Below the pieces are notes generated by a model, which was not told where the DNA came from, searched no databases, and was given only the letters and a program-made list of their open reading frames with translations. A stretch of 64,000 nt of DNA, taken from Fodinibius salinus (GTDB taxonomy: Bacteria > Bacteroidota > Rhodothermia > Balneolales > Balneolaceae). The stretch covers positions 310,001 through 374,000 of the forward strand of contig NZ_VNHY01000001.1 in the NCBI RefSeq assembly GCF_008124865.1, given 5' to 3'. A program made the translations under genes and the position numbers. This document shows, one piece after another, positions 3,601 to 24,720 of this stretch. Positions within the stretch are counted from its first letter, which is position 1. The number at the start of each line of letters is the position of its first letter.

Positions 3601-3710
3601 GCGAACATACCGAGTCATGGAATGCATCAAATTTGCCCAGTGGCATTTATATTGCCCGTTTTGAAGTTGGAACTCAAGTATTTACTCGAAAAATGACATT
3701 GATAAAATAG
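672..3710 (+). CDS. secreted multidomain protein with Calx-beta-like and lamin-tail domains and a type IX sorting domain
   Basis: A 1012-residue exported protein. Residues 1-31 form a signal peptide ending near ALS-Q. Residues 32-240 are a beta-rich region I cannot name. Residues about 246-360 resemble a Calx-beta repeat, with a DEGNSVNLTVEL start and a LTINDKD end. Residues about 364-500 match a lamin-tail domain (VVINELLTEP, then DEFIEIVNN, then DISGWQLS). A beta-rich region follows, and from about residue 924 the C-terminus has the NYPNPFNP motif and a GIYIARFEVG...TRKMTLIK ending that is typical of the type A sorting domain read by the type IX secretion system. Lamin-tail domains in bacteria are often found on surface proteins or nucleases, but no catalytic domain is recognised here. 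It probably sits on the cell surface or is released, possibly as an adhesin or matrix protein. Confidence 0.85.
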   Translation: MGTRIRIKLLISAICCTLLALGLTVQPALSQLSAGDVVFTGFNSDSPGDGFAVVLLSSVSGGQQIHFTSEGWNGSDFTGAGGSITWQAPAGGITAGTVLTFSDVEDVPWVNLGTVTDDTDMDLSGSGDVIYAFLGSDKDTPETPSSSAFLGTISSDLALYSQPDGTEGTLANTGLTEDGNEVILLPDNVDNAEYIGDRNGNTPDGYRTLVNDVGTKEATDDNWDIYNGNDVAPFPSFNDESFAIFSPPTIAFTSSTASGDEGNSVNLTVELVQATNADVDVDVVFLGSSSSAVSSDINNFSSQTVRFKEASTGATKNISIPIAESDGFENTEKAVFQVQNNTAGSIITPKLLTLTINDKDAPDVVINELLTEPHTDASGDVNGDGSRSASDDEFIEIVNNESTEIDISGWQLSADGETNVIHTFPDGTVLGAGKAIVVFGGGTPASGFGNAIIQTSTETGLSFTNSSGNVRLLDASGNVLQDIVYGGTGEPNAGDGQSVTRDPDISGSFVKHSNAKGSSGAIFSPGTKIDGTAFGSATYAIGIRGSEGWRMVSTPTSGTSVSDLFGGLWMQGITGSDDPSGDGTVFSWDEAAGSFTAPAGISSTLTPGKGYIVYVFEDNELSTPGVQGGFPKIVNTDNAENASPVSIQVTANDNDNNSTIDNNEGWNLLGNPFGTDISVDALIAALKTVDPNVNTNILVWNSDTDSYETLSSGDTIAPFQAFFVRYTIDGVSGTVNLNRSNLAANTGATFYKKRNETESEFSISLHGSEYSDPFHVSFSEGGEVALDPHDAYKLFSLDPNAINLYGVEGANKLLKDELPENLDKKIEIPLGFVAPDRQELRFKWKGLRSLPAGWTVTLIDRELKQEVDLSRISEYKFTADIPLNNDSPTKEDPLYAKTSEGNSDVRFVLAINPGMAAGASDNKLPNTVKLNPNYPNPFNPRTTLSFELTQESDVTLTIWNMIGQKVTTLVDGVREAGEHTESWNASNLPSGIYIARFEVGTQVFTRKMTLIK

Positions 3711-4026
3711 TAGCTTTAAACTTTCATATGTTGTAGGACGTTTTATCTTTTTATGTACGTTGGTTTTTATAATATATTGACAATCCTTTTATTGGCTCAG
3801 CCCGGTTTATCGGGTGATACTTCTCAAACACTCGTCGATATTGATGATGGTTTGAGGGTTTGAGTTGGCTTTAGGGATGTTTATGCCATTAAAAAGTTAC
3901 TTAACAAAGAATAAGTCTTTTAGATTGGTGTTACTTTCCATATTTTTGGATGAATTATTCATTTCTTTAGCGTGTTGTTTATCTTCTTATTAATCTTAAC
4001 TAAAGTGGAGTTTATTTTTACCATCA
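3711..4026. other. intergenic region without a recognisable gene
   Basis: About 316 bases between the secreted lamin-tail protein and the aldo/keto reductase. It is AT-rich and contains a short CCCG/CGGG inverted repeat near 3800. There is no convincing open frame, RNA gene or strong terminator. Confidence 0.5.
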
Positions 4027-4845
4027 ATGCAATATAAAAATATACAGGGTTTGGATGTGCCCGAAATAGGTCTCGGAACCTATAAGTTACACGATCGGCA
4101 GTGCGAACAAACAGTTCGAACTGCACTAGACATAGGATATCGTCATATTGATACTGCACAAATGTATAAAAATGAGCAGGCCATTGGCGAAGCACTTAAT
4201 GTATCTAACGTTCCCAGGGAAGATATTTTTCTAAGCACTAAAATCTGGCATACAAATCTCGAGGCCGATGATGTACTACAGACAACCGAAGAGAGCCTCC
4301 GTCAGATGGACACCCCCTATGTGGACTTGTTAATGATTCACTGGCCTAACGAGCAGTATGATTTACGTGCTACCATTGAATCAATGTTAGTACTGCGGGA
4401 TCAGGGTAAGGCCATGAACATTGGAGTCAGCAACTTTCCTCTTCCTTTACTTAAAAAAGTAAATGAGGAAATTCGTGCTCCCATTTTCTGTAATCAGGTC
4501 GAATTTCATCCCTTTATTGATCAGCTTGATCTGCTGGACTATGCTATCGAAAATGATATTATGGTCACCGCTTACAGTCCGCTGGCACAAGGCAAGGTTA
4601 CTGAGAATGAACAGATGAAGCAGATTGCTGAAAAGTATGATAAAACGCCGGCCCAATTGTCGCTACGCTGGCTGATAGAGCAGGAAAATGTAGTAGCTAT
4701 TCCCAAAGCATCGAGCGAAGAGCATCTGCAGGAGAATTTCGAAGTTTTCGATTTTTATCTCGAAGATGAGGATTTCGAAGCTATTGACCAGTTCGAAAAA
4801 AATACGCGTTTGGTTAATCCAAGCTTTGCTCCCGATTGGGGATAA
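4027..4845 (+). CDS. aldo/keto reductase, 2,5-diketo-D-gluconate reductase-like
   Basis: A 272-residue cytoplasmic NADPH-dependent carbonyl reductase with a single TIM barrel. The catalytic tetrad is complete: Asp42 in HIDTA, Tyr47 in QMYKN, Lys72 in STKIW and His105 in MIHWP. The IGVSNF motif and the C-terminal IPKASS cofactor-binding motif, followed by EHLQENF, are also present. Length and motifs match the AKR5/DkgA-DkgB group, whose members reduce 2,5-diketo-gluconate, methylglyoxal and other aldehydes. The true substrate cannot be told from sequence. The gene stands alone, and a hairpin separates it from the convergent thioesterase gene. Confidence 0.93.
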   Translation: MQYKNIQGLDVPEIGLGTYKLHDRQCEQTVRTALDIGYRHIDTAQMYKNEQAIGEALNVSNVPREDIFLSTKIWHTNLEADDVLQTTEESLRQMDTPYVDLLMIHWPNEQYDLRATIESMLVLRDQGKAMNIGVSNFPLPLLKKVNEEIRAPIFCNQVEFHPFIDQLDLLDYAIENDIMVTAYSPLAQGKVTENEQMKQIAEKYDKTPAQLSLRWLIEQENVVAIPKASSEEHLQENFEVFDFYLEDEDFEAIDQFEKNTRLVNPSFAPDWG

Positions 4846-4904
4846 TTGTTTTGACCATTTCTAAACATTGAGATGTTATGCTGGATTGATTTCAGCATCT
4901 ATTG

Positions 4905-4933
4905 AATGCCGCAAGTTTTGAACTTGTGGCATT
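4905..4933. terminator. hairpin terminator between convergent genes
   Basis: A 13-base-pair stem (AATGCCGCAAGTT pairing with AACTTGTGGCATT, one G-T pair) with a three-base loop, followed on the plus strand by a T-rich stretch. It lies between the convergent aldo/keto reductase and thioesterase genes and could serve both. Confidence 0.7.
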
Positions 4934-4999
4934 TCTATTTTGATCTTTTTTACACCCACTACTCGGCAACGAATACTATCTAAGACGTTAGCTTAACGT

Positions 5000-5716
5000 T
5001 TAGGTCGCATGGGCCAAGGCCAGTACGGCTTCATCAGAGCGGCGCTTGATTTGAAACCGCTCTTTGGGGGTTGAGGTATATTCGGCAATTATATTATCTC
5101 CAAGTACGGCTTCTGCTATAAATTTGATATCTATTTTGGATAGCTTTTTATCCTCAGGCATAGAAGAAAGCGCCCATTCAATATATCGCACGTTATTGAC
5201 GTGCTCATTGAGGTCCAGATCGGTCTTTCGTACTTCAAACGAGTTAGAATGTTCACTATTTCCAATCTCCTCGAATGCAGGATCGGTAACTGGCAGAACG
5301 TGCTCCGTATCCCGAGGCACATTTTGCAATATATCTTTTGGGATTCGTATGGGACGCCGTTTATCCATATCTAAGATGAGCCAATAGCTCAGGGATTTGC
5401 CGACAGTATGGCCACTTTCATCAAGCAATAAAAAATCGCGGTGGGCACGGAGTCCGTCTCCCCCTGACGGCCAGGTTTTAATAGTAATCGTTTCTCTCCA
5501 GTCGGGGAAACGATGGATCTGTATGTTGAGACGGTGCAACACCCATGTCATTTTTTGTTGCTGCAGATCGGTAATATCAAATTCAAGCTGCAGGGCATGA
5601 TTACCGGCTACTTCTTGCAGTAGGCTACAGATGGCCGCCAGTGTAGCTTTTTTATCTGCCCCGATTTCGGATGCACGAATCTTGAATTCCTCTTCATAAA
5701 TGAATTGTTGCGGCAT
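5000..5716 (-). CDS. acyl-ACP thioesterase
   Basis: A 238-residue protein of the FatA/FatB-like bacterial acyl-ACP thioesterase family, which hydrolyses acyl-acyl-carrier-protein to free fatty acid in the cytoplasm. It is a double hotdog fold. The first half has the substrate-entry helix and the WVLHRLNIQIHRFPDWRETI strand. The second half carries the active-site segment DLDLNEHVNNVRYIEW, with Asp168, Asn170 and His172 in the positions seen in plant FatB. No signal peptide is present. The nearest upstream gene on this strand is the RND permease, about 220 bases away, so it is probably transcribed separately. Chain-length preference cannot be inferred. Confidence 0.88.
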   Translation of the reverse strand: MPQQFIYEEEFKIRASEIGADKKATLAAICSLLQEVAGNHALQLEFDITDLQQQKMTWVLHRLNIQIHRFPDWRETITIKTWPSGGDGLRAHRDFLLLDESGHTVGKSLSYWLILDMDKRRPIRIPKDILQNVPRDTEHVLPVTDPAFEEIGNSEHSNSFEVRKTDLDLNEHVNNVRYIEWALSSMPEDKKLSKIDIKFIAEAVLGDNIIAEYTSTPKERFQIKRRSDEAVLALAHAT

Positions 5717-5938
5717 AGTGTTATATTAAACTCCAAAAACAAGAAAGTAAGAGTTTCGTATCCCTTTGTGAAATAACTGCAGACATCTTGGCCCGGATTA
5801 TTCACTACAGCATGAGATAGAGGTAAGCTCTTTCACTCATTCACGCTCGCAAAGTTCATTTTCATGCATTTTCTGTTTTGCTATGAATAGCTACTAATCG
5901 GGAGGTTTTAAGTTACACATCTGAGAGGTATTTATAAT

Positions 5939-8900
5939 CTAATCACTAGTACCGCTGCGCCACACTCTGATGCCCCAGCATTTTATATCATCCAGAATTA
6001 GATATACAGCGGGGAGAATAAAAAGGGTTACGACTGTTGAAAAGGTGAGTCCCCCGACAATAGCTCGTGCCATGGGAAAGTAGGGCGGACCGTCACCGCC
6101 AATTTGTGTATTGCCAAAGCAAAGTGGAAGTAGTCCCAAGACGGTAGTGGCGGCCGTCATCAGAATGGGACGCATGCGGTCTCGTCCGCCAGTAATGATT
6201 GCCTCGAAGCGTTCCAAGCCAGATTGGCGGAGCTGATGAATATGATCGATCAGCACAATGCCATTGTTGACGACAATACCCATCAAAATAAGGATACCTA
6301 TCATAGCCATGAATGAAAAGGTGGTGCCTGTCATCATAAAGAACCAGAAGACCCCAACAACGCCAAAAATGATGGAAGTGATAATGCTGGATGGGAATAA
6401 TACAGATTCAAACAGGGAGGCCATCACCAGATAAATTAAAAAGATAGCCAATAGCATATTAAGCATCATCTCATTCATGGCATTTTGGTCCTGCTCAAAA
6501 CTACGTCCCTTGTTCCACCCATAGCCTGCGGGATAGTTAATCTGATTTAGAACAGGGAAGATACGTTGTTCAGCTTCGCTCTTAGTGATATCATCCAGGT
6601 TAATTGTGATACCAAGCGATGTTTGACGATTTTCTCGCTGGATGCTTCGGGGACCCGAACTCATTTGATAGTCTGCGAGGGAGGAAAGAGTCACCGTATT
6701 TGTATCCGGAGTATTTACCGGCAGAGCCATCAGGTCTTGTATCGTTTGTCGATCGGATTCCTGCATGCTTAACACTACGTCGGTTTCGCCGTAATCCCCG
6801 CGGACTCTCCGCAGGTTGATACCTCGCATGGAATTAGAGACAATACTTGCCACCTGTTGAGTGGAAACTCCCACATTACGTGCTCGTTGTCGATCAACCT
6901 GTAGTTGTACTTCTTCGGTACCGGTTTCGGCTTCTGAGCGTACATCAGCCAGTCCGGGCACATCCTGCAGGCGGCGGACAACCTCATCAGCCAGTTGTGT
7001 AAGCACTTTTGAGGATTCACCGATCACAAAAACACGCAGTTCGTTTCCGCCCGTGCGATCGCGGTATTCAAATGAAGGCTTGCCGATAGCAAGTTTTGGA
7101 AGCTCATCCCCAATAGCCTTTTTAATGGTAGTCACATCTTTTTCAGCCTCATCGTCGCCAGTCAATAAAATGGTAGAAGTGGCACTGTTGGGCTCGAAAT
7201 AGGAATAGACAGCATCAATTTCCAGCTCTTTCTTATGTGCATAAAGATACTCCTCAATTTTTGTTACCGACTCTTCGACGCGCTCAAGTGTGTAGCTATC
7301 GTTGATATTATAGTGTAGATACAATTCCCGTGATTCGGAAGAGGGAAACATATCGATATTAGTAATATTCATTGGGATAATGACGCTCAAAAGTGTTCCG
7401 AGAATAATGAATGAGGAAGTATATCGCCGTTTGAGCAGCCAAGAGAGCGCACCGGAATACCAATCCTGTAATTTGTTAATGATATGTAATTCATCAGTTT
7501 GCTCTGGTGGAGCACTGCGTAGTGTTAGCAACGGAATAACAGTCAGCGAAATAAGGAGGGAAGCGGTAAGAGCCAAAATGATAGTTACAGCAACGTGGTA
7601 CAGCTGGACGGCAATCATAGATTCTTCACTAATAATATTCGGCAGGAATACGATTATCGTAGTTAAGGTACCTGCCGTAACAGCCATGCCTACCTGCTTG
7701 ACGCCCTGTTTGACAGCCTCTTTTTTATTATCAATTAGGTGCTGGTTTCGATGGATATTTTCGGTTACTACAACAGCGTTATCTACAAGCATACCTACCG
7801 CCAGCATTAGCCCCATCATTGATAAAATGTTGAGAGATAAGTCCAAGAAATATAGTAGTCCCAGCGCAACAATTAGTGAAAAAGGCACGGCTAGGGCTAC
7901 TATAAGGGTTGTGCTGATGCGGCGGAGGAATAGGTATAGAATAAGAATAGAGAACAAGGCGCCCAGCAGACCTGCTTTAAAAAGTTCCCAAAGTGAACTG
8001 ACAATCCCTTCAGCCTGATTGTTCATTTCAAAAATTTTAATACCGCGCATCTCAGGGAGTTTGTTAACGGCATCAATTTCGGAAAGTACGCGTTCGCCTA
8101 CAGCCACCGTATTGGCTCCCGATTCTTTAAAGATATCCAGACCGATAGCATATTTTTGATCAAGATGACGTCCGTAATTTCGATCAGGTTTCCCGTAACT
8201 GACAGTAGCAATGTCGCTGAGTTTCAGCTGGTTAGGTCCCACCACCAAGCGGGCAAAATCTGCAGGAGTTGTCAGCTCTCCGGTAGGACGAACTAGATAT
8301 CGCTTACCGGCTTCTTCTATGTTACCTGCTGTTACCGAAAAGTTTACTTCCCGAAGGTTTTGGCTTAAGGAATTAAGATCAACATTATGTGCTTTAAGCC
8401 GCCCGGGGATAAGTTCAATGCGGATTTGTTTTTTTTCTACGCCATATAGATCAACCTGCGCCACCCCGGAGAGGCGTTCAATGCGCTGTTTTAAATTACG
8501 ATCAAGCAGATCATAGGCGTTAGAAAGATCCCGCTTACTGGAGATCCGAAGCGTCATCATTGGTTCATCTTGTGCCGAAAATTTATTGATGGTAAAACGT
8601 TCCAGATCATCGGGAAGCTGGTTGCGAATACCGTCAATTTTTTCTTTTACCTCCATCGCTTTCAGGCTGATGTTAGAGCCCATCTTAAACTCTACAAAAA
8701 TGCCGGCTTGGTTTTCACTTGATGTAGAATTAATCCGCTCGATACCGCTAATCGTAGCGATGGCCTCCTCAATGGGACGCGCAATATTTTCTTCAATTTC
8801 TTGAGGTGTTGAGTTGGGATAGGGCACGGTAACATAGGCTCCGGGGAAGGAAATATCGGGGAAATATTCTAGCGGCACCATGCGGCTGGCAATGATACCT

Positions 8901-13355: not shown

Positions 13356-13882
13356 AATATTCTACGCATTTGAATTGTCAATTATTTGCAATCTAATACG
13401 CTGGCAGATTTAAAAATGTTACAAAAAATTATTTTTATGGGCGTTTAAAGCTTTAAAAGTGTGATTTTGAGTGGATTCTAAGTATTTAGGGAAGGGATAG
13501 AAAAACGCTTCTGTAAGGTATTGTTGAGGAGTGTCTCTACTGTATGAATGGCAGCCAAGAGATTTTCAGTGATATTGATAGGCGTGAACTTTTACTGGGT
13601 AATGATCCGTTCCCATGTTTTAAGTTAGCCGAATTTACAGCAAGTATTTTGAACGAATCGGTGTGCTGATCGAAATGCTACAAGCATCAACAAGTTGCTA
13701 AAGATAATAGCAAAAAATTATGTAAGGGCAAGATTATATTCGCTTTGACATCACATACAAGCATATTATTGGGGAGATTATCCTTAGGTTCACTGGTCTA
13801 TCAACGGGATATCGAAATTAGCTTATCAGCGTTAATACCGTTATTATCAGAGTCACAAAAATAAATCCTAATGTACTGATTT
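13356..13882. other. intergenic region upstream of the divergent RND and B12 loci
   Basis: About 530 bases between the divergent RND operon and the first cobalamin riboswitch. It should hold promoters for both directions. Reading frames are short and broken; none looks like a real gene. I cannot place a promoter confidently. Confidence 0.5.
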
Positions 13883-14098
13883 GATACGGTTCTGAAGATC
13901 TTGTATCTGAGATTCAGTTAAAATGGGAATCCGGTGATCTATTCCGACAGCTGTCGGAATCAAGAGTCCGGAGCAGTCCCCGCTGCTGTAAGCTCTCCGC
14001 ACAATTCGGTGCGCATTGAGGTTAATAAATCCACTCCTGTTTTTTAGACAGGGGGAAGGTGCTCAAAAGTAGAGTAAGCCAGAAGACCTGCCGTTGTC
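13883..14098 (+). promoter_or_regulatory. cobalamin riboswitch 1
   Basis: The conserved core of the adenosylcobalamin riboswitch family is readable: GGGAATCCGGTG at 13925, the P4 partner GTCCGGAGC near 13966, the L5 segment CCCCGCTGCTGTAA near 13978, CCACT...GGGGAAGG in the peripheral arm near 14031-14059, and the invariant AAGCCAGAAGACCTGCC at 14076-14092. A P1 helix can be formed between 13883-13889 and 14091-14098 with one bulge. Loop L4 is enlarged by a perfect 20-base palindrome at 13941-13960. It precedes the B12 ABC transporter genes, which it should repress when cobalamin is abundant. Confidence 0.93.
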
Positions 14099-14111
14099 AA
14101 TGAAGGAAAAT

Positions 14112-14128
14112 GCTTTCGGGAGAAAAGC
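14112..14128 (+). promoter_or_regulatory. P13-like expression-platform hairpin of riboswitch 1
   Basis: Five base pairs (GCTTT with AAAGC) enclose the loop CGGGAGA. The loop CGGG at 14117-14120 is complementary to CCCG of riboswitch loop L5 at 13979-13982, as expected for the L5-L13 kissing interaction. The loop also contains GGGAG, a Shine-Dalgarno-like sequence 13 bases before the ATG at 14136, so ligand binding could hide the ribosome site. The pairing is read from sequence; the regulatory effect is inferred. Confidence 0.65.
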
Positions 14129-14135
14129 TGTATCC

Positions 14136-15323
14136 ATGATTCAACGATTATCATCTTTCCTGCACGTTCGTTCATTTCTACTGGTTCTGTTTGTTGTAAT
14201 AGTAGGTTGGGGATGCCAATCTGCTGATCCCCCCCAAGATAGCCAGCAATCTGCTACTGTTGATTCGGTTCGATTTAGCCATCAGGTGCACGCAAAGTAT
14301 GCCGATGGATTCCAGATCAGCTACCACCAAAACTATAAGTTGCTTGAAATTCTGAAGCCGTTTCAAGATCAAGTGGACACTCTGCGTTACTCATTGGTTC
14401 CCAGAGAGATAGCTGATCAAATACAGGTCAAAAATACCGAGGAAATTGCTATCCCTGTCAGAAGTCTTATTGCCACTTCTACCACTCATCTGGGTCTTAC
14501 AGAAATGCTTAACATCAATGGAATTATTACCGGCATGGTAGGTGCTGAATATGTGTACAACCGGCAAATAAGAAACAGATTTAAAGAAGGAAAAATCACC
14601 CGGTTTACCTCTGGAGAATTCAATAAAGAACAGGCTATGGCCATGCAGCCTGATTTGCTAATGATCTCAGGCGGAGAGTCTTCACAGTTCGATAATTATC
14701 GTGTGCTTATGGAATCCGGTATCGACGTAATGGTAAACTCCGAGTGGCTGGAGACTACGCCCCTGGGCAAGGCTGAATGGGTAAAAGTAATGGCTGCACT
14801 GGTTAACAAAGAAAAATTAGCAAATCAAAAATTTGGAGCGGTTGCAAAAGAGTATAACCGTTTGAAGGCCGCCACAGATACAGTAGGTCAGAAACCATTG
14901 GTCATAAATAATATGCCCTATAAAGGAGCCTGGTTTGTTTCAGGCGGAGATAGCTTTACAGCCCGATATCTGAAAGATGCCGGTGCTGACTATCCTTGGT
15001 ATTCATCTAGTGAAACTGGTGGATTGCGGAAAGATTTTGAAGCCGTTTATGAAAAGGGGTTGCAGGCAGACGTTTGGTTGAATCCCGGTGCGACAACATC
15101 AAAAGAAGAAGTTCTGGCCAAAGATGCTCGGTTTAAGGATTTTAAATCCTACCAAACGGGCAGAATTTATAACAATAACCGTCGCCTGAATGAGTCGGGC
15201 GGCAATGATTTTTGGGAATCTGGCGTGGTGCATCCCGAAATACTTTTGGCCGACCTGATCAAGATTCTTCACCCTGAGTTAGTGCCCGATCACGAGTTGT
15301 ATTATTATCAACAATTGGATTAA
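14136..15323 (+). CDS. cobalamin-type ABC transporter substrate-binding lipoprotein (BtuF-like)
   Basis: A 395-residue periplasmic binding protein of the class III (BtuF/FepB-like) fold. The frame also has a TTG at 14094 and an ATG at 14100, but these lie in the riboswitch. The ATG at 14136 follows the P13 hairpin and starts directly with a signal sequence ending in a Cys at residue 27, so I chose it. The first lobe starts at about residue 65 (DQVDTLRYSLVPREIADQ), and QAMAMQPDLLMISGGE is the usual loop of this family. The second lobe contains KPLVINNMPYKGAWFVSGGDSF. The C-terminal PEILLADLIKILHPE helix is typical. Cobalamin specificity is inferred from the riboswitch and the neighbours; a siderophore ligand would otherwise be possible. 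Confidence 0.87.
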   Translation: MIQRLSSFLHVRSFLLVLFVVIVGWGCQSADPPQDSQQSATVDSVRFSHQVHAKYADGFQISYHQNYKLLEILKPFQDQVDTLRYSLVPREIADQIQVKNTEEIAIPVRSLIATSTTHLGLTEMLNINGIITGMVGAEYVYNRQIRNRFKEGKITRFTSGEFNKEQAMAMQPDLLMISGGESSQFDNYRVLMESGIDVMVNSEWLETTPLGKAEWVKVMAALVNKEKLANQKFGAVAKEYNRLKAATDTVGQKPLVINNMPYKGAWFVSGGDSFTARYLKDAGADYPWYSSSETGGLRKDFEAVYEKGLQADVWLNPGATTSKEEVLAKDARFKDFKSYQTGRIYNNNRRLNESGGNDFWESGVVHPEILLADLIKILHPELVPDHELYYYQQLD

Positions 15324-15342
15324 CCTTTTAACTGAATAATTG

Positions 15343-16407
15343 ATGAACGAAGACCCCATACATAACCGAAGGGGAGGTTATTCGCTATATTTTGTACTGC
15401 TAGCCACTGCGGTTGTAGTACTCTTTGTGCTTAATCTGGCACTTGGTTCGGTAGACATCCCCATCGGAGATATTGTGGCAATATTAGGTGGTGGAGAGGT
15501 AGGTAACGGGGCATGGCATAAGATTGTAATCAATATTCGTATTCCCCGGGCTGTAACAGCTATTTTGGCAGGGAGTGCGCTCTCGGTGGGAGGATTGCAG
15601 ATGCAAACATTGTTTCGCAACCCGCTGGCGGGTCCTTCGGTATTGGGAATTACCGCAGGTGCCAGTTTGGGAGTAGCTATCGTAATGCTTGCTGCCGGTA
15701 CAATCACCAGTATTTTTGCCATCCAACAGTTCTCGGCGCTTGGCAGCTGGTTAATCGTAGGTGCTGCCAGTGCCGGTGCCGCAGGGGTGTTGCTTCTGAT
15801 CTTATTGATATCCATAAAGGTACGGGATAATGTAACCTTACTTATCATTGGACTTATGATTGGCAATATTACCATCGCCGTGGTAAGTGTTTGGCAGTAT
15901 TTTAGTAGTCCGGAGCAAATTCAGGATTACCTGATTTGGACCTTTGGAAGTCTTGGCGGTGTGCCGCTCAATCAGCTGTGGATTCTAGGAGCTGTAACAA
16001 TTGTGGGCGGTGGACTAGCACTGGCTTTATCAAAACCGTTAAACGGTTTGCTGCTGGGTGAAAACTACGCTCGCAGCATGGGCCTGTCGGTTACCGCTTC
16101 GCGCATCTGGATTATTGTAAGTACCAGTCTGCTGGCTGGTGGAATTACAGCCTTTTGTGGTCCCATTGGGTTTGTAGGTATAGCAGTGCCGCATCTAACG
16201 CGTTCGTTGCTGGGTACTAATGATCACCGCGTGCTTATTCCAGCAACTTTGCTGATGGGTGCACTGTTGCTGTTGGCCTGTGATATCATTGCACAAGTGC
16301 CCGGCTCATCAACTACGCTGCCCATTAGTGCAGTCACTTCAATGGTAGGTTCTCCTGTCGTTATTTGGGTCATTATTCAGCGAAAAAATCTAAAGGCCTC
16401 ATTTTGA
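15343..16407 (+). CDS. FecCD-family ABC permease (BtuC-like)
   Basis: A 354-residue inner-membrane permease of the iron/cobalamin importer family, with about ten hydrophobic segments. Hallmarks include IPRAVTAILAGSALSVGG, the FRNPLAGPSVLGITAGASLG motif and, near the C-terminus, GPIGFVGIAVPHLTR, followed by the DIIAQ segment that contacts the ATPase. I start it at the ATG (15343) rather than the adjacent TTG at 15340. It follows the binding-protein gene by 19 bases, and its TGA stop overlaps the ATG of the ATPase gene by one base, which points to translational coupling. Cobalamin as substrate is inferred from the locus. Confidence 0.9.
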   Translation: MNEDPIHNRRGGYSLYFVLLATAVVVLFVLNLALGSVDIPIGDIVAILGGGEVGNGAWHKIVINIRIPRAVTAILAGSALSVGGLQMQTLFRNPLAGPSVLGITAGASLGVAIVMLAAGTITSIFAIQQFSALGSWLIVGAASAGAAGVLLLILLISIKVRDNVTLLIIGLMIGNITIAVVSVWQYFSSPEQIQDYLIWTFGSLGGVPLNQLWILGAVTIVGGGLALALSKPLNGLLLGENYARSMGLSVTASRIWIIVSTSLLAGGITAFCGPIGFVGIAVPHLTRSLLGTNDHRVLIPATLLMGALLLLACDIIAQVPGSSTTLPISAVTSMVGSPVVIWVIIQRKNLKASF

Positions 16408-17426
16408 TGGATAACCAAGAAATCATATCGACCCGTGATTTATCTATTGGATTTCCACCTGCCGGGTCACAAACTTCGGCTACAGTTGTAGGATCAGATA
16501 TCAATGTAAACTTACAAGGGGGCGAAATTGTGTGCTTGCTGGGGCCCAACGGATCGGGTAAGTCCACACTTATTCGCACACTAGCTGGCCTGCACAGGCC
16601 GCTGGATGGAAGAGTACAGCTGAGCGGACACAATATTGACGAGCTGGCCAACCGGGAAAAAGCGCAGCAAATAAGTACGGTATTGACCGATCGACTGACG
16701 ATTGGAAACCTGAGTGTCTACGAGCTGGTTGCCTTTGGTCGTTCTCCCTATACCGGCTGGTTTGGATCGCTTACCGAGCAGGACGAAGAAATTGTAAGCT
16801 GGGCCATTCGATCCACCGGCATTGAGCATTTTGTAGATCGCGATGTCCTACGAATCAGCGACGGGGAGCGCCAGAAAGTTATGATTGCCCGAGCGCTGGC
16901 GCAGGATACAGAGGGCATCTTGTTGGATGAACCTACGGCCCATCTGGATTTGCCTAACAGGGTAGAAGTGATGCGACTTCTGCGGAAGTTGGCTCATCAA
17001 ACACAAAAGGCCATTTTGCTTTCTACACATGAACTGGATTTAGCTCTGAAGGCAGCGGATACCCTTTGGCTTATAAACCGCAAGGGACAGGTAATAACCG
17101 GTACACCTGAAGATTTAGTGCTCGACGGTACCTTCGAGGCAGTTTTTGAGCGCGACAGTTTTGATTTCGATCGCAGTACGGGTTCTTTTACGCTTCATCA
17201 TCCCCAAAAGGAGCCAGTGCATCTGACGGGCGATACGGTTGGCGTATTTTGGACGCGCAGAGCTCTTGAGCGAGAAGGGCATCGAGTAACTGAGTCTAAC
17301 GGAACTGAATTGCAGGTTAAAGTGCAACAGGATAGCAATACATTTAGCTGGCAGTTTATAAAGGGAAATACGACCACTCGTTGCGAATCCATGAAAGCAC
17401 TACTCGATGAGCTGAATGACAGATGA
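16407..17426 (+). CDS. ABC transporter ATP-binding protein (BtuD-like) with C-terminal extension
   Basis: A 339-residue ATPase that powers the importer. Walker A GPNGSGKST lies near residue 50, the signature is a variant RISDGERQK (Ser and Asp in place of the usual LSGG pattern), Walker B is EGILLDEPTAHLD, and the switch His is in LLSTHELD. The frame opens earlier with a TTG at 16365, but the ATG at 16407 overlaps the permease stop (TGATG) and is preferred. Typical BtuD/FepC proteins are about 250-270 residues. This one adds roughly 85 residues after DSFDFDRSTGSF with mixed alpha/beta character and no motif I can name. The extension may be regulatory. Confidence 0.9.
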   Translation: MDNQEIISTRDLSIGFPPAGSQTSATVVGSDINVNLQGGEIVCLLGPNGSGKSTLIRTLAGLHRPLDGRVQLSGHNIDELANREKAQQISTVLTDRLTIGNLSVYELVAFGRSPYTGWFGSLTEQDEEIVSWAIRSTGIEHFVDRDVLRISDGERQKVMIARALAQDTEGILLDEPTAHLDLPNRVEVMRLLRKLAHQTQKAILLSTHELDLALKAADTLWLINRKGQVITGTPEDLVLDGTFEAVFERDSFDFDRSTGSFTLHHPQKEPVHLTGDTVGVFWTRRALEREGHRVTESNGTELQVKVQQDSNTFSWQFIKGNTTTRCESMKALLDELNDR

Positions 17427-17488
17427 TTTTATTTTTTTAGTTTCAATTGATCCATAAAGCTGCTAAGTTTACACGCTCTTTGAAATAG

Positions 17489-17673
17489 CAATTGGTTCCC
17501 TATGAAAATAGGGTGAAAAGGGAATTTCGTGCCTTCGAGTATTCGGAGAAGTCGAAAGCTGTACCCGCAACTGTGATTCCATCATTATGTTGCCTCTTAT
17601 CTTGTTACCACTATCCGTCGGTTGGCGGATGGGAAGGTAAGGCAACAGGAAAAGCCAGGAGACCTGCCTATTG
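17489..17673 (+). promoter_or_regulatory. cobalamin riboswitch 2
   Basis: A second complete cobalamin riboswitch, inside the gap between the ATPase and the TonB receptor. Visible core elements are GGGAATTTCGTG near 17520, the P4 partner CGAAAGC near 17553, L5 ACCCGCAACTGTG near 17563, CCACT...GGGAAGGT in the peripheral arm near 17610-17638, and GCCAGGAGACCTGCC at 17654-17668. P1 can form between 17489-17495 and 17667-17673. L4 is again longer than the family minimum, here with an imperfect TTCGAG/TTCGGAG hairpin. It should control the outer-membrane receptor and its lipoprotein partner separately from the ABC genes. Confidence 0.93.
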
Positions 17674-17687
17674 ATACTATTTCGAAA

Positions 17688-17719: not shown

Positions 17720-19660
17720 ATGTTTTCTAGACCTATTTTACGTATCTCACGTGTATTTTATGTAGCCATTGCTTTGGCATTGCTGCCGGTCGGCTTTACT
17801 CATGCCCAATCTGTACTTGCCGATACGCTCCAGCTGGATGAAATTACGGTCGTTGCCACTCGTATCCAGCAGCCGCTTGAATATCAGCCAATCAATATTG
17901 AACTGATTGATTCGGCGCGCATTGGCATGTTGGAAAATCGGGATATTGGAGAGATATTAGCGGCCGAATCATCATTGTTTATTAAACAAAACGGCCCGGG
18001 TTCATTTTCAAATGCATCTCAACGTGGACTCTCGTCCGAACAAATTCAAGTACTTTGGGAAGGAATACCCATTAATAATCCCATGTTGGGTCAGAATGAT
18101 CTGTCGTTGCTACCGGCTAGTTTCTTTTCGGACATCCAGGTCAGCTCGGGTGTGCCAAGTACTGCTTTTGGTGGTGGCAGTCTTTCAGGTGCACTATATT
18201 TGTCTTCGGATTGGGAGCAAGGCAGCCGCATCTCGCTGCAGCAGAGCGCAGGTTCATATGGGCAGCGGCAGACTTCTTTAAATGCTCGGTACAATACAGG
18301 ACTCTGGCAAGTAGGAGTGCGCAGTATGTTGTCGCGATCAGAAAATGACTTTAGCTATTACAATCGTGCTTATAATCGAGAGGAACAAAGAAGTCACAAT
18401 CGCACTGAACGAGAGAATTTGATGACCTCGGTAAAACGTAAACTGGACAAAGGGTCGTTGGAATCGACCTTTTGGATTACAGACAGTAAAAATCAAATTC
18501 CCGGAAGTGTTATTAGTCCATCGCCCAAGGCTCGGCAAGAAGATCAATCATTGCGTTGGTTAAGTAGTTACAATAGCCGGTGGGGCAAAGCCAAAATATC
18601 CCTCACAAATTATCTAGAGCGTGTAGAGTTAAACTACTTTGATCCTGAAATTGATACGCACAGTTTGAGTACGAACCGACGCTGGCTAATGAGTGCAGAT
18701 ATAAAATTTCAGCCCTCGACGTTTGTACAGTGGAAGGGAGAAGTCAGCGGTGGAATAACGGGGGTACAAACCAATAATTATACATCTGATAAACAGCGGC
18801 AACAGCTGAGTGTGCTGGCCAATCCAGTGATAGTTGCTTTGGATAGTAAATTACGGTTATATCCGGCGCTCCGCTTTGATGCTTACAGCGATTTTGGGAG
18901 TGTTGTGAGTCCGTCGCTGGGCATCAACTATGAACTGATAGAAGAAACAGTATTTTTAAGAGGACAGCTGAGCCGCGATTTTAACCCACCCACATTTAAT
19001 GCTTTATACTGGGCTCAGAGCGGTAATCCTAATCTTGAGGCCGAGCGCAGTAATTCTTTTGAAGCAGGCCTTGCTGTCATGCCATCAAAGACCAGCTTTA
19101 GTTTCGCTTCTGCTCAGCTTACTGCTTTTTACAGCCGCATTTCGGATGGCATACGCTGGTTCCCCGGTAATAATGGAGTGTATTCACCTTCAAATGTTGA
19201 GCAGATTACTTCGCAAGGACTGGAGGCTCAACTTAAAAACATTCTTTCTTTTCCGGCGGGTTTGCAAATTAGCCTGCGTCAATCAGGATCTTTTACAAGT
19301 ACTGAAATCACCGAGCCTCGTTTCTCGGGTGATGGTGCCGTAGGACACCAACTGCGCTATGTACCCAAATGGAAGTACAAGGCATCGCTGAGCATCAAAA
19401 AAGGTATGGCTAAAGCGTTGTTGCAATACCAATGGATAGGCCGCCGCTATACGACCGATACTGAAAGTATCAGCAATTCACTTGATCCCTACCAGGTTAC
19501 TGATGCGACTTTGCAGCTACAAAAGTCTGTGGGCGGATTTCGATTTACAGCACGAGCAGGAATCAATAATATTTTTGGAACGAATTATGAGATTGTCCAA
19601 TGGTATGCCATGCCGCAGAGAAACTACAATTTTTCACTCACTACAACTTATCAATTCTAA
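17720..19660 (+). CDS. TonB-dependent outer-membrane receptor, BtuB-like cobalamin receptor
   Basis: A 646-residue outer-membrane transporter that uses TonB energy to import its ligand. The N-terminal signal peptide ends near HAQS. A TonB-box-like DEITVVATR follows, then a plug domain (residues about 45-160; IGEILAAESSLFIKQNGPG and QRGLSSEQIQVLWEGIPIN are typical), then a 22-strand-type beta-barrel region ending in a terminal Phe (TTTYQF), as in most outer-membrane proteins. Length is close to E. coli BtuB (about 600 residues). Cobalamin as ligand is inferred from the riboswitch directly upstream and the ABC genes; the barrel sequence itself does not prove it. Confidence 0.92.
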   Translation: MFSRPILRISRVFYVAIALALLPVGFTHAQSVLADTLQLDEITVVATRIQQPLEYQPINIELIDSARIGMLENRDIGEILAAESSLFIKQNGPGSFSNASQRGLSSEQIQVLWEGIPINNPMLGQNDLSLLPASFFSDIQVSSGVPSTAFGGGSLSGALYLSSDWEQGSRISLQQSAGSYGQRQTSLNARYNTGLWQVGVRSMLSRSENDFSYYNRAYNREEQRSHNRTERENLMTSVKRKLDKGSLESTFWITDSKNQIPGSVISPSPKARQEDQSLRWLSSYNSRWGKAKISLTNYLERVELNYFDPEIDTHSLSTNRRWLMSADIKFQPSTFVQWKGEVSGGITGVQTNNYTSDKQRQQLSVLANPVIVALDSKLRLYPALRFDAYSDFGSVVSPSLGINYELIEETVFLRGQLSRDFNPPTFNALYWAQSGNPNLEAERSNSFEAGLAVMPSKTSFSFASAQLTAFYSRISDGIRWFPGNNGVYSPSNVEQITSQGLEAQLKNILSFPAGLQISLRQSGSFTSTEITEPRFSGDGAVGHQLRYVPKWKYKASLSIKKGMAKALLQYQWIGRRYTTDTESISNSLDPYQVTDATLQLQKSVGGFRFTARAGINNIFGTNYEIVQWYAMPQRNYNFSLTTTYQF

Positions 19661-19670
19661 AATTTAAGTT

Positions 19671-20735
19671 ATGTCCAAACGATACTTTTTATTCTTTTTA
19701 CTCATCTCTTTTGTAATTACAGCCTGCAGCGACAACGGTAACGAACCTGATCCGTTGGAAACAGCATCCGTATATTTGATGAATCAGGGCAATTTTTCTG
19801 ATGGTAATGGATCGGTTACAAATTATGATCCCCAAGACGGTAGCGTATCCAAACAGTCTTTTAAAAATACCAACGGACGTCCTATGGCAGGTATCATTCA
19901 GTCGGCCCATGTCAAAGATGGACAAATGTATATCGTGCTAAACGCTGCTGATAAGATAGAAGTAGCGAATAGTCAGAATATGCAGAGTACTGTGACCATG
20001 GAAACGACTCTTCCCCCCACAGCTATTGAGGTTCTTGATAATGGACTGGCATATGTAACGACTCTGGATTTCCAGGCCAGCACTGATAGTGTATTGGTTA
20101 TGGATTTAAATTCGATGGAGCAAACCGACCAGCGTATTGCCGTTGGTACTTCACCGCGTGATATTGTAGAAGTTGGTGATCGTGTGTATGTGACAAATAG
20201 CGGCAGTAATTCGATTTCAGTCATTAATCCAAAAACACAAACGGTAGAGCAGACTATGAATGATGTTTGCACAACGCCCAGCGAAATGGCTGTTGATAGT
20301 GAAGATCGTATTTGGGTGGCCTGTAACGGGCAAGTTTCATACGATTCAAATACTGATGACACTCCGGGCAGTATATATGTACTGGATGGACAAACAGGAC
20401 AACGTATAAATACGATAGAATCGCCGGATATTGCGGCTACTTCCGGTTTTGTATATCGACTAGAACTAGACAGTGAAAATGCGACTGCCTATTTACTTAA
20501 TGATGGCATATCCACGATAGATATGAACAATTTTACGCTTTCTGATCAAAAACTTATTGATCGATCGTTTAGTGCCATCGGATTTTTTGGTCCGCAGCAA
20601 CGCCTATATCTGGGCCAAAGCAATGGTTTTAGTCAGCCAGGCAAAACCGTACTTTATGATACTAAAGGGGCAGCAGTAGATTCATTTTCAGCGGGAATTG
20701 CTCCACAGGAATTTAAGTTTATAACTGGTAGGTAA
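19671..20735 (+). CDS. BtuG-like surface lipoprotein, YncE/DUF5074-type beta-propeller
   Basis: A 354-residue lipoprotein 10 bases after the receptor gene. The lipobox is TAC at Cys19, followed by an acid-rich stretch (SDNGNEPDP) that resembles the surface-export signal of Bacteroidota lipoproteins. The rest consists of repeated beta-propeller blades: VYLMNQGNFSDGNGSVTNYD at the start, then IEVLDNGLAYVTTL, DRVYVTNSGSNSISVINP and EDRIWVACNGQ. This matches the DUF5074/YncE fold. In Bacteroides thetaiotaomicron the surface lipoprotein BtuG, of this fold, sits on BtuB and binds cobalamin very tightly. By position, fold and riboswitch context this is the likely counterpart. No binding data are implied, and sequence similarity to BtuG needs alignment. 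Confidence 0.85.
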   Translation: MSKRYFLFFLLISFVITACSDNGNEPDPLETASVYLMNQGNFSDGNGSVTNYDPQDGSVSKQSFKNTNGRPMAGIIQSAHVKDGQMYIVLNAADKIEVANSQNMQSTVTMETTLPPTAIEVLDNGLAYVTTLDFQASTDSVLVMDLNSMEQTDQRIAVGTSPRDIVEVGDRVYVTNSGSNSISVINPKTQTVEQTMNDVCTTPSEMAVDSEDRIWVACNGQVSYDSNTDDTPGSIYVLDGQTGQRINTIESPDIAATSGFVYRLELDSENATAYLLNDGISTIDMNNFTLSDQKLIDRSFSAIGFFGPQQRLYLGQSNGFSQPGKTVLYDTKGAAVDSFSAGIAPQEFKFITGR

Positions 20736-21108: not shown

Positions 21109-24100
21109 ATGGAATTCACACGTTTTTATACTCAGGAAGAGTGGGATAGCCCGTTTGGGGATATGGAATTTGAGAGTCGAAAATCGGAGATCAAAAATCC
21201 TGACGGCTCTGTTGTCTTTAAACAAGAGAATGTTATTGTACCCGAAGATTGGTCACAGGTATCGACCGATGTAATGGCACAAAAATATTTTCGAAAGGCT
21301 GGGGTGCCAAAAGAAACCAAAAAGGTAAAAGAGAAGGGAGTACCGAAATGGATTCAGCGGTCCGAGCCTGATGAAGAAGCGATGAAAGATATTGATGAAG
21401 ATGATCGATTTGGCGGTGAGCAAGACAGCCGTCAGGTGTTTCGTCGTCTGGCCGGTTGCTGGACGTACTGGGGCTGGAAACATGATTATTTTGATTCGGA
21501 AGAAGAAGCAAAGATTTTTCATGATGAGCTCTGTTATATGCTGGCTAATCAGATGGCTGCTCCGAACAGTCCGCAGTGGTTTAATACGGGCTTGCACTGG
21601 TCTTATGGCATTAATGGTCCGTCGCAGGGTCATTATTATGTAGATGGCAAAACCGGCGAACTCACTAAGTCAGATGATGCCTATTCGCATCCTCAGCCGC
21701 ATGCTTGCTTTATTCAAAGTATTGATGATAATCTCGTCAATGAAGGCGGTATTATGGATCTTTGGGTTCGCGAGGCCCGTCTGTTCAAGTACGGCTCTGG
21801 AACGGGCAGTAATTTTTCCAAAATCCGCGGTGAAGGAGAGCCGTTGAGTGGCGGTGGTCATTCATCAGGTTTGATGAGCTTCTTGAAAATTGGTGATAAG
21901 GCAGCGGGTGCTATCAAGTCGGGCGGTACGACCCGACGCGCAGCTAAGATGGTGACACTGGATCTTGACCATCCGGATATTGAAGAGTATGTCAACTGGA
22001 AGGTACGCGAAGAGCGAAAAGTGGCTTCCATGGTAACCGGATCCAAAGTGCTGGAAAGTCATCTCAAGAAAATTATTAAGCTGTGTAACAAGCCGGTGGA
22101 GATTGACGGTCGCACCTTCAACGGAGCGGTAAGTCGTGATCCTTCAAAGAATGAAGAGTTGGGTAAGGCTATTAAAGAAGCTAAAGAAGATGAAGTGCCG
22201 CTTAACTATATTGAACGTGTGGTACAGCTGGCGGCCCAAGGATTCACAGATCTGGAATTTGAAACCTATAACACCGACTGGGATTCAGAAGCATATCGCA
22301 CGGTGAGTGGACAGAATTCCAACAACTCTGTGCGTATTCCCAATAAGTTTATGAAGGCCGTCCAAAATGATGAGGACTGGAATTTGTATTGGAGAACGGA
22401 AAAACGGAAGGCCGCCGAAGAGGGTCGGGAGCCGGAACCAAGCAAGACGCTCCGCGCCCGTGAGCTGTGGGATGATATTTCTCAGGCAGCTTGGGCTTCT
22501 GCCGATCCGGGAGCGCAGTATCATGATACGATTAATGAGTGGCATACTTGTCCCGAAGATGGACCGATTAACGGCAGTAATCCGTGTTCAGAGTATATGT
22601 TCCTCGACAATACGGCTTGCAACCTGGCATCACTGAATTTAATGAAGTATTTCAAGACGGAAGAGTGCCAGGAGTTTGATGTAGAAGCTCTCCGCAATGC
22701 ATCGCGGTTGTGGACGGTCGTGCTGGAGATTTCGGTACTGATGGCCCAATTCCCATCCAAAGAAATTGCTGATCTCTCATACAAGTATCGTACGCTGGGT
22801 CTTGGGTTTGCTAATATTGGTGCCGCGCTGATGGTTCAGGGTGTTCCATATGACAGTCCCAAGGGATGTGCCATTGCCGGTGGACTGATGAGCATTATCC
22901 ACATGAATGCCTATGCAACCAGTGCCGAAATGGCTGATGAGTTGGGTACGTTTGAACGGTACGAAGCCAACAAAGAGCACATGTTGCGCGTAGTTCGCAA
23001 TCACAAACGTGCAGCATATAATGTGGATCCCGATGAGTACGAAGGATTGACGGTGAAGCCGATGGGTATTGATGCCAATGAATGTCCCGATAATCTGCTG
23101 GAAGCGGCGCGCGAAGATTCTGATAAAGCCGTAGAAATGGGAGAGAAGTACGGTTACCGCAATGCGCAGGTAACGGTGATTGCTCCAACGGGCACTATTG
23201 GATTGATAATGGATTGTGATACTACCGGCATTGAACCTGATTTTGCACTGGTTAAGTTTAAGAAACTAGCCGGTGGCGGACACTTTAAAATTATCAATCA
23301 GGCTGTGCCCAGAGCGCTAGAGAACTTGGGATACAGCCCTAAAGAACGGCAGGACATCATTAATTATGCCAAAGGGCATGGTACGCTTGATGGTTGTCCC
23401 CATATCAATGAAGAAAGCCTTCGTGAAAAAGGCTTTGGCGACAAGCAGATAGAGGCAGTCGAAGAAGCTCTGCCAAGCAGTTTCGAAGTGAAGTTTGCCT
23501 TTAATCAGTGGACATTGGGTGAAGATTTCTGCAAAGAAGAACTTGGTCTAACGGATGAAGAGCTTGCTAATCCCAAATATGATATTCTCAAGCATCTCGG
23601 ATTTTCTAAAGAGGAAATTCAGGAAGCCAATAAATACGTTTGCGGTACGATGACGGTAGAGGGTGCTCCGCATTTGAAAGATGAGCACTTGCCGGTCTTT
23701 GACTGTGCTAATCGCTGTGGACGTATTGGTACCCGATATATTAAACCCGGTGGACACATCCGAATGATGGCGGCTGCGCAACCGTTTGTTTCGGGCGCGA
23801 TTTCCAAGACTATTAACCTGCCAAACGAGGCTACGGTTGAGGATTTCAAGGATGCCTACATGCAGTCTTGGCAGCTAATGCTCAAGGCTAACGCCCTTTA
23901 TCGCGACGGTTCGAAACTCAGTCAGCCGCTGAACAGTCTCAGTGATGTCTTTGAAGACTTCGACGAGCAAGAACTGGATGAAAATTCTGCTGAAGGGCAA
24001 GACAAGGTGGTAGAGACGGCCGAGAAGATTATCCATAAATATGTGGCCGATCGCCAGCGGCTGCCAAGTCGTAGAAGCGGTTATACGCAAAAAGTTAAAA

Positions 24101-24720
24101 TTGGCGGACAGAGCGTGTACTTGCGAACCGGCGAATATGAAAACGGCCAGCTCGGTGAAATATTTATTGATATGCACCGCGAAGGTGCGGCATTCCGCAG
24201 CCTTACGAACTGCTTTGCTATTGCCATTTCGCTTGGCTTACAGCACGGTGTTCCGCTTGAAGAGTTTGTGGATGCCTTTACGTTCACCAAGTTTGAGCCC
24301 AGCGGAACGGTCACCGGTAGTCCGCATGTGAAGATGACCACTTCGGTTATTGATTATATTTTCCGAGAGCTGGCAGTGACCTATCTCGGTCGTGATGACC
24401 TGGCGCATGTTCCTGCAGAAGATGTAATGTCACGCAAAATGCGTCCGTCTGAAGAGGCTGAGCAGGCGCGGGAAAAAGCGAATCGGATAGATCCGGAGCA
24501 GTCCGGAACCCAACAGCAATCAGATGCTGTAGCACAGCCTGAGCCGGCGAAAGAAACGCAGGCTGCAGGTGATGATGACAGTTATCAAAGTGATTATGAG
24601 CAGGCCAAAGAGCTGGGATATACCGGCGACTCATGTCCCGAATGCGGAAGTATGACGATGGTCCGTAATGGAACTTGTCAGAAGTGCATTACCTGTGGTT
24701 CAACCACTGGCTGTTCGTAA
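21109..24720 (+). CDS. nrdJ: adenosylcobalamin-dependent (class II) ribonucleotide reductase
   Basis: A 1203-residue enzyme that reduces ribonucleotides to deoxyribonucleotides using adenosylcobalamin as radical generator, independent of oxygen. The finger-loop motif is intact: Asn491, Cys493 and Glu495 in [44 protein letters not shown] is the conserved substrate-site region. The C-terminus has a cysteine-rich tail, C1176xxC1179, C1190xxC1193 and C1196, with a final Cys at 1202, serving as zinc ribbon and redox shuttle. It has the long (about 1200-residue) form of the family, and no extra inserted domain such as an intein is evident. GGAG lies 8 bases before the ATG. It follows the B12 uptake locus but has its own promoter region after a terminator. 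Confidence 0.97.

Follow-up and report, generated by a model that had tools for sequence, protein, structure and literature searches.

BtuG has been proposed as a trait of the Bacteroidetes and discussed as a response to the crowded conditions of the gut, and the claim that it is exclusive to this group was based on 313 gut genomes (PMC6143338). For Bacteroides thetaiotaomicron, PMC10404256 describes how BtuG2, with a net charge of -18, contacts B12 through 13 hydrogen bonds, grips it with a 'pliers' loop (Asn54-Thr64) and narrows its upper-ligand cavity with Trp194, Trp272 and Tyr316; the hinge of this lid is an N-terminal linker resting on EL2 and EL11 of BtuB. The same paper reports that the nucleotide loop of bound B12 is contacted by an aromatic residue in EL8 of the receptor, which is Tyr538 in BtuB3, Phe in BtuB2 and Trp in BtuB1, and that removal of the EL8 tip abolished growth on B12 (PMC10404256). 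A 2026 paper argued that gut bacteria are not the only carriers of DUF4465 B12 binders either (PMC13398666).

We analysed a window of 64,000 nucleotides (G000:C1:310001-374000) from the 2.86 Mb genome of Fodinibius salinus. From position 13870 it carries riboswitch, btuF, btuC, btuD, riboswitch, btuB, btuG and nrdJ in this order, all on the forward strand:

13870..14109, +, cobalamin riboswitch 1 (Rfam RF00174, 87.8 bits), preceding btuF-btuC-btuD
14094..15323, +, BtuF-like periplasmic-binding lipoprotein (Pfam Peripla_BP_2, 64 bits)
15340..16407, +, BtuC-like permease (Pfam FecCD, 245 bits)
16365..17426, +, BtuD-like ATPase (Pfam ABC_tran, 101 bits, residues 45-192)
17476..17685, +, cobalamin riboswitch 2 (Rfam RF00174, 98.8 bits), preceding btuB-btuG
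17720..19660, +, BtuB-type TonB-dependent B12 receptor, placed by phmmer against PDB and by Foldseek with the lid-bearing (BtuB1-3) kind
19671..20735, +, BtuG orthologue of 354 aa (lipobox Cys19, DUF5074 seven-bladed propeller)
19782..19814, +, 'pliers' loop NQGNFSDGNGS, residues 38-48 of BtuG, corresponding to BtuG2 Asn54-Thr64
21109..24720, +, B12-dependent class II ribonucleotide reductase nrdJ (Pfam Ribonuc_red_2_N 155 bits, Ribonuc_red_lgC 437 bits)

The results showed that the open reading frame at 19671-20735 is real, and its lipobox, the 10-base gap behind the receptor and the cobalamin riboswitch, all named in the sequence-only reading, were confirmed. With the last base of the btuB stop at 19660 and the first base of btuG at 19671, exactly 10 intergenic bases remain, and riboswitch 2 lies 34 bases upstream of btuB. 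The upstream position of btuF is conserved in the genus, and its true start is probably further downstream, since the listed TTG start overlaps riboswitch 1. The BtuD-like ATPase is extended at its C-terminus by about 80-100 residues, in which no Pfam match was found.

The product begins with a signal peptide and lipobox (FVITAC19), conserved across the genus of the window, followed by SDNGNEPDPLE. It scored 44.1 bits against Pfam DUF5074 (cut-off 27.2) and 13.1 bits against Pfam YNCE (cut-off 27.1), so that of the proposed DUF5074/YncE propeller the DUF5074 part stood, while YncE is a fold resemblance only and not a family match. In a PDB sequence search, the best nine matches were BtuG chains (2e-15 to 1e-13). 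We then built an AlphaFold model from 35 aligned sequences (pLDDT 92.7, pTM 0.88) and searched it with Foldseek. Ranks 1-16 were chains of BtuG1, BtuG2 and BtuG3 (E 1e-23 to 1e-17), with TM scores of 0.74-0.80 over the query, and after them came an archaeal surface-layer propeller (4e-14), BtuK1 (8e-13) and E. coli YncE (5e-10). The alignment to BtuG proposed earlier thus places these chains first by both sequence and structure, although the window protein and BtuG2 share only about 20% of their residues overall. The mature chain has a net charge of -24. The protein is a BtuG orthologue.

To compare the B12-contact residues, we matched them against BtuG2, numbered from BtuG2 Cys32. The pliers loop was well conserved among 35 Balneolales proteins: N38 and G40 were present in 35/35, F42 in 33/35 and N46 in 31/35. 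The aromatic Tyr335 of BtuG2 is Phe320 in the window protein, and the cavity residues Trp194, Trp272 and Tyr316 correspond to a gap, Phe260 and Ser301, respectively. Because these cavity-narrowing aromatics are replaced, the affinity or preference of the window BtuG may differ from that of BtuG2.

The receptor was examined in the same way. In a phmmer search against PDB, the window BtuB matched B. thetaiotaomicron BtuB3 (7e-49) and BtuB2 (1e-48) far better than E. coli BtuB (2e-7). With its model (pLDDT 88.6), Foldseek returned BtuB3, BtuB2 and BtuB1 at ranks 1-6 and E. coli BtuB from rank 7, with siderophore receptors ranking far lower. By sequence and predicted structure, the receptor is of the lid-bearing class, the BtuB1-3 kind. 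In the phmmer alignment, Tyr488 of the window receptor (GVYSP) fell on the GFYSP/GFFSP position of the B. thetaiotaomicron receptors; from the residue numbering, Tyr538 of BtuB3 is presumed to be the GFYSP tyrosine. This EL8 column was aromatic in 20/20 receptors beside a lipoprotein BtuG and in 11/14 beside a BtuG carrying a sorting domain of the type IX secretion system (T9SS).

We further assessed the conservation of the pair in the relatives of the same order that had a BtuG match and whose locus was taken. In all 34, btuB lay directly upstream of btuG on the same strand, usually with nrdJ nearby. One of these loci (L063, 5096-7202) has its btuB frame split in two, by assembly error in a draft genome or as a pseudogene. 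A cobalamin riboswitch was found in 43/43 informative BtuBG loci scanned; the sole locus without one, L183, is a short cut-out of L281 (Ignavibacteria bacterium UBA6667), which carries the riboswitch at 2927-3117, BtuB at 3237-5177 and BtuG at 5182-6483. The adjacency and the riboswitch counts together indicate that the arrangement in the window is not due to chance. nrdJ is a recurrent neighbour of btuBG, with the same surroundings in most relatives of the order. Its product shares 75-77% identity with those of Balneola sp. and a Balneolaceae bacterium, and 62-65% with the next group, Ignavibacteria. These identities place the organism in the Balneolaceae. nrdJ is a consumer of imported B12, pointing to a need for it. 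A CobI/CbiL model reached only 66 bits, well short of its cut-off of 163, which agrees with an absence of de novo B12 synthesis. Elsewhere in the genome, the following features were located:

G000:C4:261217-261423 (L070 about 7218-7424), third cobalamin riboswitch, preceding metE, nrdB and nrdA
L070 4736-7144, metE, B12-independent
L070 3301-4287, nrdB, B12-independent
L070 775-3195, nrdA, B12-independent

With a riboswitch before metE and nrdB/nrdA as well, scarcity of B12 should turn on both scavenging and bypass.

These results bear on whether the DUF5074/YVTN propeller might instead serve a TonB-dependent receptor for a siderophore, haem or another tetrapyrrole. Propeller lipoproteins such as XusB do serve siderophore receptors, XusB and XusA occur far down in the Foldseek lists, and the window protein lacks the aromatics that narrow the cavity in BtuG2. 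Against this stand the riboswitch in every informative locus, the nrdJ neighbour, a receptor closest to BtuB2 and BtuB3, and a Foldseek list in which BtuG chains fill the first 16 ranks. We consider such a non-B12 role very improbable. Sequence, predicted fold, partner, regulation and pliers-loop conservation agree with the proposed BtuG-like B12-capture lipoprotein, B12 capture itself being a prediction, and its most likely function is to catch B12 as a lid on the adjoining BtuB.

Taken as a whole, the protein is with high probability BtuG, an outer-membrane lipoprotein lid that would capture corrinoids at the surface and hand them to the BtuB of the adjoining gene. B12 would be drawn to the negative face of the propeller and gripped by the pliers loop; upon lid closure, EL8 would push it off into the barrel, as in B. 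thetaiotaomicron, and BtuF-BtuC-BtuD, which have their own B12 riboswitch, would carry it onward into the cytoplasm. For surface exposure, B12 binding, the opening and closing of the lid and transfer to BtuB, we infer from the B. thetaiotaomicron work that the window pair would behave similarly. The start of BtuG carries acidic residues (S-D-N at +2 to +4), with similar starts in congeners, and this acid-rich start is a plausible surface-export signal. It is not diagnostic, because CQSADPPQDSQQ is likewise the start of the adjacent BtuF, a presumably periplasmic protein.

The anchor of BtuG differed among the relatives. In about half of the order, BtuG has no lipobox; instead, it starts with a Sec-type signal peptide and ends in an additional domain of about 85 residues (...QNYPNPFNP...KMxLVK). 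In 18/18 tested proteins of this type, the score against TIGR04183, the model of the T9SS type A sorting domain, was above the cut-off, with agreement from Pfam Por_Secre_tail, and neither model matched the lipoprotein forms searched (L034, L046 and the window protein). T9SS-type BtuG was found in many Balneolales, in Rhodothermia and in Ignavibacteria, at the following loci:

L048-L054, L056-L059, L061-L063, L067, L203-L206: T9SS-type BtuG, btuB beside
L224, L225, L231, L232, L236, L239, L242, L243, L251: T9SS-type BtuG in other families of the class, btuB beside
L281, L318-L324: T9SS-type BtuG in Ignavibacteria, btuB beside except in L318, where the region taken cuts the locus

All 23 T9SS-type loci scanned for the riboswitch were positive. 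L264 (678 aa ORF) and L273 (719 aa ORF) encode a BtuG that continues for about 300 residues beyond the usual C-terminus and may be a BtuG-BtuH fusion like B. thetaiotaomicron BtuG1.

Next, we compared the two anchor forms with the secretion genes of their genomes. The sortase PorU is needed for cutting and attaching type A cargo. Using NF033707 as its model, we found PorU above the cut-off in 28/29 tested genomes with a T9SS-type BtuG, the exception being G033, a draft of 93% completeness. Within the order, PorU was present in 13/25 lipoprotein-type and 18/19 T9SS-type genomes (Fisher p 0.0025, kinship ignored), and it was absent from all 12 genomes of the window's genus g1 (G000-G011). The simplest reading is that without the sortase only the lipid anchor can be used, while with it either anchor occurs. 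SprA was rejected as a T9SS marker, being present in 59/59 relatives and giving no discrimination; its presence in PorU-less genomes means that a missing sortase does not imply that all T9SS parts are missing. Conversely, counts of TIGR04183 alone do not prove a working T9SS, because PorU-less genomes still give a few matches. The genomes of g1 have SprA, no PorU and a few T9SS-type sorting domains left, indicating a T9SS partly lost or altered.

The sorting domain also bears on the possibility that the BtuG homologue is periplasmic or in the inner leaflet, as a second periplasmic B12 buffer and not a lid. The similarly acidic start of BtuF, and the fact that surface export of lipoproteins in Balneolota is only putative, speak for such a buffer, which we nevertheless judge highly unlikely since BtuF is already encoded, the receptor belongs to the lid-bearing class, and the T9SS sorting domain in the BtuG of many relatives (TIGR04183 in 18/18 tested) marks cargo that crosses the outer membrane, which argues for a conserved site of action outside.

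To trace the anchor forms of the lid, we constructed a maximum-likelihood tree of 92 propellers with the anchor parts left out. The anchor label requires 4 changes on the tree (4-6 in bootstraps; at least 3 changes forced by well-supported branches), a count that carries no direction of change. A single clade of all T9SS-type rows was rejected (p-AU 1.7e-74), while a single clade of the Balneolales T9SS-type rows was not (p 0.41). It is likely that the anchor of BtuG comes in two interchangeable forms, a lipid at the N-terminus or a T9SS sorting domain at the C-terminus, and that these were switched several times in the Bacteroidota/Balneolota/Ignavibacteriota lineage while BtuB and riboswitch control were kept. 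The T9SS-type lid is presumably taken to the surface by the T9SS and held by its C-terminus; its tethering, or its release, would then follow a different route from that of the lipid form. A closed propeller usually has its two ends in one blade, so a C-terminal tether could keep the T9SS-type lid near the same side. If the two-anchor reading is true, a TonB-receptor lid of the T9SS form would depend on a protein secretion system for its delivery and be held at the opposite end. Since the hinge of BtuG2 is an N-terminal lipid linker and T9SS-type lids lack it, these lids would be a natural test of the role of anchor and hinge in the 'pedal bin' mechanism. In the open-licence literature, we found no report of a T9SS-type BtuG and no paper joining BtuG with Balneolales. 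DUF5074 appeared there only in work on Elizabethkingia vesicles, BtuG and type IX secretion were named together only in work on the BAM complex, and T9SS, cobalamin and sorting domain together only in one paper on a CRISPR array.

The distribution of BtuG was determined by profile search. Matches were found in 179/394 genomes of the window's GTDB phylum (E 0.001), of which the weakest may be other propellers, and in 95/197 genomes of the Ignavibacteria class at 1e-15 or better. The two sets share matches, such as the one at C6:169851-170924 listed under both G282 and G837, indicating that the genome collection counts the window's phylum and Ignavibacteria as one phylum. Among 299 Pseudomonadota genomes, 10 matched at 1e-15 or better, with at most 69 bits and partial propellers, and no full-length BtuG was found; named genomes tried from other phyla gave at most 52 bits. 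The partial matches in Pseudomonadota, planctomycetes and myxococci were rejected as BtuG, being partial or lacking the NxGNF loop or a BtuB neighbour. A propeller of Methylocystis silviterrae (L147, 2865-4133, minus strand) was rejected for the last two reasons; this YVTN propeller lies near nrdJ, matched the BtuG profile at 1e-29 and probably belongs to a different propeller family.

GTDB keeps Balneolales within Bacteroidota, while NCBI taxonomy assigns Balneolaceae to the phylum Balneolota, so the suggestion that this BtuG lies outside Bacteroidota is right under NCBI and wrong under GTDB. The further suggestion that the BtuB-BtuG pair is older or wider than gut bacteria was supported by these counts in the phylum and the Ignavibacteria class. 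That the pair extends beyond gut Bacteroides is certain, and its distribution suggests that it was probably in place before Bacteroides, Balneolales, Rhodothermales and Ignavibacteria diverged. BtuG in Balneolota, Rhodothermia and Ignavibacteria would make lidded B12 receptors an old device of the whole bacterial group.

As an identification, the earlier reading was right: the window encodes an unexceptional BtuG, in a lineage new for this protein, and the anchor switch in its relatives is the part worth following. With YncE/YVTN propellers, the window protein has the fold in common, but the YNCE family score is below its cut-off and the Foldseek E value is 5e-10, compared to 1e-23 for BtuG. 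The window BtuB is closest to B. thetaiotaomicron BtuB1-3 by sequence and structure and keeps the EL8 aromatic, at 17-24% identity. With T9SS-type BtuG (e.g. L053, L056, L231, L239 and L281), the window BtuG has the propeller family, the btuB neighbour and the riboswitch in common, whereas the T9SS type has no lipobox, a plain signal peptide and the C-terminal type A sorting domain. B. thetaiotaomicron BtuG1, BtuG2 and BtuG3 (PDB 8bmy, 8okv, 8bmx, 8p97, 8blw) are like the window BtuG in the lipobox, the seven-bladed DUF5074 propeller, the NxGNF...N loop, the negative mature chain, the btuB adjacency and riboswitch control. The window BtuG differs from them in its low identity, its changed upper-ligand cavity residues and the lack of a BtuH domain, and it is the single copy of an organism not from the gut, compared to three in B. 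thetaiotaomicron.
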